Assembly (NCBI GenBank): GCA_964058845.1
Contig: CAXKVR010000147.1
Span: 1 to 64,000, forward strand
DNA length: 64,000 bases
Reading direction: 5' to 3'
DNA from: Carex sylvatica
Lineage: Eukaryota > Streptophyta > Magnoliopsida > Poales > Cyperaceae
Shown here in pieces: positions 46,326 to 49,141 of this stretch (its first letter is position 1; each line of letters opens with the position of its first letter). The translations under genes and the position numbers were made by a program. The notes under the pieces were generated by a model. It worked only from the letters and a program-made list of their open reading frames with translations, ran no database searches and was not told the DNA's origin.

Positions 46326-49141
46326 TCAAGTGAGAAACATTTGAGCAAAAGCATCCATATTCTCTGAAGACAGTGCCAAGGATACTTTAACCGTCCCCTC
46401 TTCTTTTCCACTGAGCATTACCACCTCTCCATCAAGGTCAATCGATGCCAACTCGATCCGATCAGGTTTGCCCCAGCCGAAGTCTGTCTCGTAGGCCTTA
46501 AACCGAGGTGACCCGGCAAAGTAAACCACTCGTCCAGCAGGAAGTTTTGAATATTTGTCAGGCCAACTTTCACACTCCACCAGTGGTTCCTTGGTCGCTT
46601 TTTGAATAGCCTGTCATAAAACCAAACAAGATTATTCTCTGATTTTGGTAAATCTGTTAGGATGAAAACATTTGAATAATTATGTAATTGACCTTACAGT
46701 TTTTGCTAGTACAACTCTTGAATAATTTTCAAAATAGATCTTAGCTGATAAATTTAACCTGCTGTTTGAATTAACATTGATCACTTCAAAGATCGAAGAA
46801 GAAGAAATGACCAATGTAAAATCTTGAAGTTTGCATCAAACCTAACCTGTTTCAAAGCGATACAAACCGGTACAAACCCATCAGGCCGGGCAACCTCCGA
46901 TGCAGTCATCGAGGAAAAGCAATATGAGACGCAATTTCCAGTGTAACAATCATCAATGATTGGATCCAATCGAGAACGGCAATCGGTGAGAAAAGCTGCA
47001 ACTAAAGGGCCATCATCATCGGCAAATCCACGCACACTCGCGACAGTCACCAGCACGCGTGCTGCTATGCATACAAATGTTGAAGGGTTCTCATGCCTGG
47101 CTAGTTTCTTCCAGGACCTAATTGTCGATTCATCAACTAAGAAGGTCCTTCGAGTTCTGAGCAGCCTCTCTTGAAGTGAACGTGGTGCTATTGTCAGCTG
47201 GTTCAAGAGTAAATTAATCAGAACAACTATAGATAGATATATATAGAGAGAGAGAGGAGAATGGCGAGGTAGCATAGTTGGCTAGAAAAAATGTCCTCGA
47301 TACTCAAAGGTCAAGAGTTTAAGCCCTTCTCACTAATTTGCAGTCTCGGTGATGATTTCGAAGAGAGAGAGAGAGAGTGAGTGCATATATATACCAATTA
47401 AGAACATAGAACAATTCAAGCCCATAATTTTAAGTTACAGAAGTACCAGTGATATGACATGAGTAAATCTTGGATCCATGTTATTAAACAAGAGTTAACT
47501 GAAAATCTATAAGATTTAATTTAAATTTTTTTTGCAAACTATAAGATTTAATTTTAAACAACAAATTAAAATTGTTCAAACTCATCTACTTCACTAATAA
47601 TGTGTTTATATATACAATCTATAAATTTTTGAATTACTTTATACTAAAGTCAACTAGTAATAATAAGAAAGTTCATAAGATGATTTTTATGCATTACTTT
47701 TTTGACATTAACTTTGTATTAAATTAATTCGAAAAATTATAAATTTTGCATATAAATATATTATTTGTGAAAGAAATTGGTTTTTAAAAGTTTAAATTCA
47801 TCATTCAAAAATCAATTTGATAAATTTTAAAGTTAACCCCATTAAAATTATCCTATTTCTACTCAATATGATATGCATGCTTTATCTGTGAGTTACAAAA
47901 AAGTTTCAGACTCAATGTTATTTATTTATTACAATATTTAACATTATAACCTGATTCTTCCAAATATCTTCAACTTCCCCACAAACTCTATTGACATATA
48001 TATATATATACCTTAGGCAAATCAGGAGCCATCTTCTTTGTGAAGTTTTTCGCAATCTTATCGCCTTCGGGATACTTGATTATTGCCCGGTCATGCACTG
48101 GCATGAATACCGATGGCACACTGCCGGTCCAGCAGGTGGAAGCCCAAGCCTCCATAAACTGCCACAACCCTCTCCCATCAGCCACTGTGTGGTGAATAGC
48201 AGTCCCTAATGCTACACCACCATTGGAAAACCTTGTTACCTGTAGGGGTGTTCAAACGGTCGGTTCGGTTAAAACTGAAGTAAAATGATTAAATTAAACA
48301 TTTTTTTGGTTTTCAAAAATAGAACTGAATGGAACCAATTAAATCTATCAACCGATTAGGAACTAAACCGAACATGCAGACCGAAGTAAATTTCGGTTTA
48401 TTCAGTTCAAACCGAAGTAAACTTATTGATATCATTATTAATGAAAAGAATACATTGTCATATACAACAATTCAAGTTCAGTTTGGTTTGGCCCGGTTTG
48501 GTTTAATGAAATCATTATAACACCAATAAAATTAGATTCGAACCAATATGAACCGGTTAGTTTGGTTTAATTGGTTTTGAGAGTCGAACCAATTTAAACC
48601 GAAATAATTCAAAATTTCAACCGAACCGATACATTTAAACTGAAATTTTCCGATTCGGTTAAAACCGAAAAAACCGAACCATTTGAATACCCCTAGTTAC
48701 CTGCACTGCAAAAACTTCTATTGGAAGCTCCAGCATGGTTATATTTGGCACCAATTGGAGAAACAACTCGAGGTCTAGTACTTCTTCCTTAGCAATACGG
48801 TGTATGTCTAGATCAGACTCTGCCTCTATAATTGCGACGCCTTCATGGATTGCTGATGCAGAGCAGTCGATAATTGCTTTGTCGTCAGAAGAAATGTAAG
48901 TGAGCTTACCGGCAAATGGATGGAAGGATGGCAACATGAGTGCAAGGGACGACTTGAGGGAACTAAGGATTGTAGCAAAAGAGGCATCGGCAGTGTCAGG
49001 GTAGAGAAAGATGCGTTGCATATGTGGTACGGCGACCCAGATTGAATCGAAGAAGGATAACTGTATGGTTTCACCGGGAGATGGGTATGGGCCTGGCTGG
49101 AGTGCCACCCGGGACACATTACGCACCCGTACTCCTGCCAT
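46326..49141 (-). CDS. BAHD acyltransferase, four exons (flavonoid/phenolic glucoside acyltransferase type)
   Basis: Exons on the minus strand are 49141-48701, 48239-48012, 47197-46847 and 46610-46326 (441, 228, 351 and 285 nt). All three introns are phase 0 with GT-AG ends, giving 434 residues, normal for BAHD enzymes. These transfer acyl groups from acyl-CoA to alcohol or amine acceptors in the cytosol. The protein begins MAGVRVRNVSRVALQPGPYP. The catalytic HHTVADG motif (HxxxD at residues 164-168) is in exon 2 and the structural DFGWG motif (383-387) in exon 4. Exon 3 has CYTGNCV where the anthocyanin/malonyl clade has YFGNC, which suggests glucoside acylation with one motif residue changed. 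The ATG context (AAAAATGG) is good. No stop or frameshift was found. Substrate cannot be read from sequence. Confidence 0.9.
47262..47340 (+). mobile_element. SINE-like pol III promoter fragment in intron 2
   Basis: TAGCATAGTTGG (47270-47281) fits the A box of tRNA-derived SINEs and GAGTTTAAGCCC (47315-47326) resembles the B box, at a suitable distance. AG microsatellites lie on both sides (47246-47258 and about 47362-47378). No poly-A tail or target duplication was identified. Confidence 0.4.
48240..48700 (-). other. Intron 1 of the acyltransferase, formed by a MITE
   Basis: The intron is 461 nt, exactly one 453-bp MITE plus one 8-bp target duplication. On the minus strand the duplication is CAGGTAAC. 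The upstream copy gives the exon end CAG and donor GTAAC; the downstream copy gives the acceptor CAG and exon start GTAAC. Splicing therefore rebuilds the pre-insertion codons, while the unspliced sequence reaches a stop after about 14 codons. It lies 17 residues before the catalytic HxxxD histidine. Confidence 0.85.
48243..48695. mobile_element. hAT-type MITE inside the acyltransferase gene
   Basis: 453 bp. Ends TAGGGGTGTTCAAACGGT and, reversed, TAGGGGTATTCAAATGGT are inverted. The interior is rich in GGTTCGGTT and AACCGAAC. A perfect 8-bp duplication, GTTACCTG, flanks it at 48235-48242 and 48696-48703. Eight-base duplications point to hAT. Confidence 0.92.

Follow-up and report, generated by a model that had tools for sequence, protein, structure and literature searches.

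Whether introns that occupy the same position in related genes descend from one ancestral intron or were gained repeatedly is an old dispute, and the first intron of an acyltransferase gene of the BAHD family in the 64,000-nucleotide stretch of Carex sylvatica DNA analysed here (hereinafter, the window) raises this question in a testable form, since the agent, its target duplications, seemingly uninterrupted relatives and an ancient intron position are combined in one gene. Did a transposable element, in this case a MITE, make a new intron where other members of the family have an old one?

The gene is located on the minus strand and consists of four exons separated by three introns, all in phase 0 (Table 1). 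The spliced coding sequence of 1305 nt encodes 434 amino acids followed by a stop codon and contains no internal stops. The encoded protein matches the Transferase family PF02458 with an E value of 3e-49, contains both the HTVAD and the DFGWGKP motifs in intact form, finds its best match among the solved structures in the malonyltransferase 2xr7, and has its nearest protein relatives in Carex, Rhynchospora and Juncus. Judging from the family match, the HxxxD and DFGWG motifs and the closeness to malonyltransferases, this appears to be a BAHD enzyme of the malonyltransferase type.

Table 1. Features of the BAHD acyltransferase gene and of its first intron (positions in the window)
Feature	Position	Strand	Remarks
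Exon 1	48701..49141	-	441 nt, codons 1-147, last codons GTG CAG
Intron 1	48240..48700	-	461 bp, GT-AG, phase 0, at the BAHD Q-intron position; splicing predicted
Target-site duplication, copy 1 (CAGGTAAC)	48696..48703	-	exon 1 end CAG and donor GTAAC
hAT-type MITE	48243..48695	.	453 bp, 18-nt terminal inverted repeats
Donor-side terminal inverted repeat	48678..48695	.	inverted-repeat pair
Candidate branch-point A in TTTTAAC	48269..48269	-	30th base from the intron end; motif match only
Acceptor-side terminal inverted repeat	48243..48260	.	on the coding strand, CACCCCTA directly before the acceptor CAG
Target-site duplication, copy 2 (CAGGTAAC)	48235..48242	-	acceptor CAG and exon 2 start GTAAC
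Exon 2	48012..48239	-	228 nt, codons 148-223, contains HTVAD
Intron 2	47198..48011	-	814 bp; same position seen in relatives as read-through
Exon 3	46847..47197	-	351 nt
Intron 3	46611..46846	-	236 bp
Exon 4	46326..46610	-	285 nt including the stop codon, contains DFGWGKP

An earlier note on this DNA had claimed that intron 1 is exactly one 453-bp hAT-type MITE plus one of its 8-bp duplications, and its coordinates agree with ours to the base, as they do wherever we compared them. The two flanking 8-mers are identical (GTTACCTG, or CAGGTAAC on the coding strand), the terminal inverted repeats (TIRs) of the element, TAGGGGTGTTCAAACGGT and ACCATTTGAATACCCCTA, are 89% complementary over 18 nt, and the longest stop-to-stop frame inside the element has 63 codons. 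The duplication, in which AGGT is included, provides both splice sites, just as the note had it: exon 1 ends with the CAG of copy 1, which continues into the donor GTAAC, and copy 2 contributes the acceptor CAG together with the GTAAC with which exon 2 starts. Excision of 48240-48700 leaves the 434-residue frame intact, so that splicing, if it occurs as predicted, would not affect a single codon. The early stop postulated for the unspliced message is there as well: if the intron is retained, the frame reads on as VTRGIQMVRFFRF for 13 more residues and meets a stop at the 14th codon. An element plus one duplication, with AGGT within the duplication, is the anatomy of a target-duplication intron.

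The hAT label of the MITE is based on the length of the duplication and the end sequence, and the element is one of many in the genome that was searched (labelled G000; 950 contigs that total 64 Mb and may be incomplete). It matches at least 52 pieces of this assembly, as scored for 40 of the 176 candidates; identity is approximately 79% for full-length relatives, and for partial ones it rises to 81% (about 410 bases) or 85% (280 bases). The 15-base end of the MITE, TAGGGGTGTTCAAAC, which is also common to elements with different interiors, occurs 178 times with at most one mismatch, compared to 3 occurrences of a reversed-pattern control. Among 27 TIR pairs in readable loci, some of which are copies of one duplicated segment, the 8-bp flanks are identical in 19 and differ by 1 to 7 mismatches in the remaining 8, as expected of a hAT-type MITE; with the 8-bp duplication, short TIRs, small size, multiple copies and the lack of a long frame, the element belongs to this class. 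The duplicated segment is represented by three copies (L005, L006 and L007, at G000:C2:290335, C2:125050 and C49:1143, respectively) that have one target duplication in common, ATTGGAGG or its complement, so the DNA around them seems to have been duplicated. These data also bear on the possibility that the locus was joined chimerically in the assembly, in which case the precise fit of the element would mean nothing. Only a single, possibly incomplete assembly is at hand, but 8-bp duplications without mismatches are nothing unusual in the MITE family (19 of the 27 pairs) and the reading frame is intact over four exons; we regard a chimera as extremely improbable.

Intron 1 follows Gln147 and lies 17 residues before the HxxxD motif (His164). 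The earlier note had given this distance correctly and missed the identity of the position, which, by sequence, is that of the classical Q intron of the BAHD family, reportedly described by St-Pierre and De Luca in 2000. The text available to us from one study (PMC11875395) describes a 'widely conserved Q-intron' after a Gln codon, 17 residues upstream of HxxxDG, and that from another (PMC4893494) places the Q intron between Gln and Val.

Introns apparently occur at this position in many paralogs from the same genome. A paralog search yielded 26 places, 4 of which represent the BAHD gene itself; the remaining 22, with the exception of L030-L033, were classified, with the Q introns of the paralogs predicted from DNA. 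Fourteen places, which correspond to 12 genes (L014, L015, L016, L018, L019+L027, L020, L021+L026, L022, L024, L028, L029 and L034), are of the Q-intron type. In nine distinct BAHD genes (L014, L015, L019, L021, L022, L024, L028, L029 and L034), the coding similarity starts at a CAG/GT-like junction at the Q site (here and below, the slash denotes the junction); L018 and L020 bring the number of such genes to eleven, and the diverged L016 is an unsure twelfth. Another four places, or three genes (L013, L017 and L023+L025), are continuous across the site. We also considered L027 as a continuous paralog and rejected it, given that its frame crosses CAG/GTAAAG, a donor; because of this, and because L019 follows it on the same strand of one contig, L027 is taken as exon 1 of the L019 gene (G000:C886:11119-15881), a BAHD gene with a Q intron of, seemingly, about 3.8 kb. 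The paralogs L017 and L028 are sisters in the tree (100/98, with a short row for L017), and L028 appears to possess the Q intron, whereas L017 (CAA/GTG) appears to lack it, so that loss of a Q intron in this genome is possible.

The note had named, as an observation that would count against its reading, the presence of an intron at this codon in MITE-free relatives. Taken literally, such introns do appear to exist, but they belong to distant paralogs. In our view the reading is not refuted by them, since the site is read through in the closest relatives and the Q-intron paralogs lie beyond a well-supported branch (see below); what the distant paralogs do imply is that intron 1 is located at an ancient position rather than at a new one.

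Relatives were collected with a query made of the first two exons plus the read-through into intron 2, and 17 of the 18 proteins obtained (all except P0053) were inspected; such a query favours uninterrupted proteins, and frames of at least 126 residues that consist of exon 1 only are findable with it as well. The comparison with relatives that the note had called for had a twofold outcome: 16 of the 17 proteins run through the Q site and 11 of these are apparently unspliced, which agrees with the expectation, but a MITE-free intron appears to be present in the distant paralogs, which does not. The one protein that does not run through, P0072 (141 residues, from a 1186-bp contig), ends approximately 7 residues before the Q site, be it due to a frame shift, the contig end or another cause. 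The 11 proteins read Val beyond the intron 2 junction and terminate after 1 to 43 further residues; six come from lgn or jgi sources (P0066, P0068, P0016, P0047, P0073 and P0077) and five from annotated genomes (P0067, P0069, P0074, P0075 and P0076). A Val followed by an early end is what the reading of an unspliced phase 0 GT donor produces, and therefore these proteins look unspliced; some of the lgn-source proteins could stem from transcripts that retain intron 2, and in the annotated models the Q site could have been spliced. The read-through peptides of P0066 and P0068 could be derived from a close variant of the intron 2 start of the BAHD gene. When exon 2 was used by itself as a mirror query, a single protein was obtained, and it likewise runs through the Q site. 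The uninterrupted site in the relatives is deduced from proteins rather than from orthologous DNA.

In the tree of the first part of the protein, the BAHD gene joins P0067 from Carex littledalei (100/99) and then P0066 and P0012 (100/99), with P0068 and P0016 further out. The gene is thus bracketed by apparently uninterrupted sites. The nearest relative, P0067, has a shifted frame over approximately its first 35 residues and its end reads into intron 2; it looks like a faulty model or a damaged gene, and the respective gene could carry the MITE. The tree of the part after Gln147 separates the BAHD gene and 20 outside proteins from 15 paralogs of the searched genome with 100/99 support, several of the paralogs having long branches and two rows being less than half filled. 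Twelve of these 15 paralogs (L027 left out) carry the Q-intron label, which requires 3 changes on this tree, an uninformative number in that 148 of 500 shuffles need no more; the outside proteins are unlabelled. The malonyltransferase-type clade that includes the BAHD gene appears, from these sequences, to lack the Q intron, either by loss or because it was never present. Among published accounts, to the extent of the text at hand, three Populus genes of clade Ia have no predicted introns (PMC3123328), and most seed-plant BAHD genes contain 0-1 introns, with the ancestral gene structure described as unclear (PMC9950517).

These comparisons do not point to common descent of intron 1 and the Q introns of the family. 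The codon boundary after Gln, phase 0 and the 17 residues to HxxxD are shared with the Q intron of those partial descriptions, but the body of intron 1 is a MITE, and the close relatives, on protein-level evidence, appear to have no intron at the site; therefore, it shares the location of the Q intron but apparently not its ancestry. Conceivably, an ancestor with an ordinary Q intron could have received the MITE at the donor, with the remainder of the old intron deleted later. This replacement scenario draws on the apparent abundance of Q introns in the same genome (11 clear and one diverged), on exon 2 of L014, L015 and L029, which also starts with GTAACA, and on a copy of the MITE family in contig C56 that adjoins the donor of an apparently older intron. 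Against it, the duplications are identical and contiguous with both the element and the exons. No remnant of an older intron is left between them, and a deletion would have needed an exact end; furthermore, P0066, P0068, P0016 and more distant relatives appear uninterrupted at the site. We consider a replacement very unlikely.

In our assessment, it is quite probable that the MITE created the intron in a gene whose Q-intron position had until then been empty. The starting point would be a gene of the malonyltransferase-type BAHD clade, apparently without a Q intron, in which Gln-Val-Thr was kept in the protein, so that the site would have read CAG/GTAAC, a proto-splice site. Insertion of the hAT-type MITE at this site would place one copy of the 8-bp target duplication on each side; copy 1 would then become the exon end and the donor, and copy 2, directly after CACCCCTA, the acceptor and the exon start. 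The spliceosome would excise the MITE with one duplication exactly and, the protein being unchanged after excision, the insertion would be tolerated. The hairpin formed by the inverted repeats would leave both splice sites unpaired and may help splicing.

Why should this have happened at the Q site of all places? Gln147 is invariant in an alignment of 16 sequences and the next residue is usually Val, so CAG/GT is rarely more than one codon choice away. In the coding sequence of the gene, AGGT has five occurrences and CAGGT a single one, which coincides with the junction of intron 1, and only 25 and 4, respectively, of its 1298 8-mers contain these strings. Given such small numbers, surviving, spliced exonic insertions are expected at the Q site more than elsewhere in the gene, and therefore it is no great surprise that the intron coincides with the ancient position. 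A proto-splice bias of this kind may be the reason why introns recur at one place. We are inclined, with some reservation, to go further and propose that Gln-Val keeps an intron-free Q site at or near CAG/GT as a standing landing site, and that some of the introns at conserved positions are independent, recurrent transposon gains, of which the present gene would be an example with the element still intact. If true, it is the amino acids, not an old intron, that keep the proto-splice site available, and this is why some positions recur.

With respect to the splicing signals, the A+T content of intron 1 is 0.68, compared to 0.52 in exon 1, 0.50 in exon 2, 74% in intron 2 and 71% in intron 3, and the first AG downstream of the candidate branch point is the terminal CAG of the intron. 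The donor has C at +5, the acceptor is preceded by a short pyrimidine run, and a competing AG (TTTACTTCAG) is located 35 nt upstream of the acceptor. Intron 1 is predicted to be spliced precisely from RNA. The intron RNA is predicted to fold as a hairpin with both splice sites in the unpaired ends (z of -5.64 with 100 shuffles), a score that is no test of function because any MITE with inverted repeats folds well. The imperfect donor and the upstream AG leave some room for the possibility that the MITE is unspliced or spliced at that AG, in which case this copy of the gene would be disabled and the match to the splice sites coincidental; precise splicing is itself a prediction, and P0067 is likewise in a shifted frame. 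However, all 434 codons, HTVAD and DFGWGKP are intact, the end branch in the protein tree is 0.019 for the BAHD gene compared to 0.052 for P0067, and AGGT is found in just the 25 8-mers of the coding sequence indicated above, so that we view a disabled copy as unlikely. The age of the insertion is also relevant. For the MITE copy, the end branch measures 0.129 and the K2P distance to a 5-copy consensus is 0.149, with 9 indel events. A neutral coding sequence at 0.12 would be expected to accumulate 4.5 nonsense changes, with a probability of 0.011 of having none (frame shifts left out), and the frame is intact; this argument is an upper bound because the divergence of the MITE may partly predate the insertion. 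In addition, 30 of the 57 MITE differences are C>T or G>A, and hence the divergence may be inflated by methylation.

Creation of introns by transposons is not without precedent. The reference list of a 2012 review of insertions into AGGT includes the plant papers of Iwamoto (1998) and Giroux (1994). In the part of that review available to us (PMC3443670), 35 events of transposon insertion into AGGT are given for Oryza, Drosophila, Oikopleura and Zea, and the likeness is close in that the duplicated target yields both donor and acceptor while the coding sequence is unchanged; in contrast to those events, as presented there, the intron described here involves a hAT-type MITE, both 8-bp duplications intact and a site homologous to an old intron of the family. 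Introners, which the accessible portion of a 2022 survey (PMC9860276) does not report in land plants, resemble the present case in that an element of the DNA-transposon type forms the intron. They are, however, described there as families of many introns per genome, whereas here one of 30 readable copies is an exact intron, with both splice sites supplied by the target duplication. As for recurrent gain, a 2014 study of grasses (PMC4256211), in the text at hand, confirmed none in 883 presence/absence cases, with three groups reconstructed as loss followed by gain, found convincing plant evidence for recurrent gain lacking and stated that no fixed gain in plants had been linked to a transposable element. 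The recurrent gains in Daphnia that it cites are similar to our case in that an intron arises where the family has or had one; compared to the grass cases as given there, the element and its duplications are visible here, in one assembly. Intron gain or loss was reported also in sugarcane (PMC4902974), where the available text gives no MITE origin. In the open-licence literature searched, parts of which were accessible, we found neither a MITE-derived BAHD intron nor a transposon-made intron at an ancient homologous position, which is no proof of absence. Thus, the insertion of transposons into AGGT was already known; what is apparently new, as it was not found in these sources, is a plant MITE that acts in this way at an ancient homologous intron position.

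The note had further surmised that this case could represent a general route by which the MITE family makes introns, and had suggested a search for other copies exactly between splice sites. This part of its claims found no support: the BAHD gene was the only exact case found, accompanied by one copy, in C56, that abuts the donor of a seemingly existing intron. We joined the flanks of 30 readable elements with two TIRs, using a slightly laxer TIR and 8-bp flanks that differ by at most one base. With one exact intron among the 30 elements surveyed, we reject the idea that the MITE family makes introns in general; the hallmark of introners, a single element family that accounts for many introns of a genome, was not seen. 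The joined flanks of the MITE in the BAHD gene yield 256 codons, the sole frame among the 30 recognised as a host gene (all other frames were judged by eye), followed by L069 with 183 codons (copia-like by eye) and L075 with 145 codons (unrecognised by eye).

Searches for splice-site strings next to TIRs gave similar results. A close TIR match preceded by AGGT at a distance of 0-4 bases was detected at two places in the genome, the BAHD gene and C56, compared to one for the reversed-pattern control. A looser pattern matched 12 places compared to 43 for its control, so these places are mostly noise; 10 of the 12 were examined (C10 and C121 left out), and among these AGGT-adjacent ends only the BAHD gene is an exact intron. 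The locus L035 has matching duplications, but its joined frame comprises just 23 codons; at L059, L093 (twice) and L094-L097 (7 ends), no matching second end was found and no upstream coding sequence was seen by eye. Duplications that start with GGT, with the acceptor CCCCTAG/GT, occur at six places compared to none in the control. Four of these, C3, C10, C44 and C49, were examined (C36, C609 and the loci L087-L092 themselves left out) and correspond to elements from the joined-flank survey, with frames of 72, 39, 95 and 60 codons, respectively, none of which was recognised as a host gene.

Two further copies of the family deserve mention. At L065 (G000:C56:52413), the MITE directly adjoins coding sequence, with the exon boundary at CAG/GTTAGGGG. 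The respective intron extends about 70 bp past the diverged other end of the MITE, and no matching duplication was seen, so the element probably landed at the donor of an already present intron. The gene in question, which we take to resemble peptide N-glycanase, had no match in a search of solved structures. The copy at L069, flanked by perfect duplications (GCTGGAGC), lies within a frame that, by eye, resembles a copia-type polyprotein and is interrupted by it.
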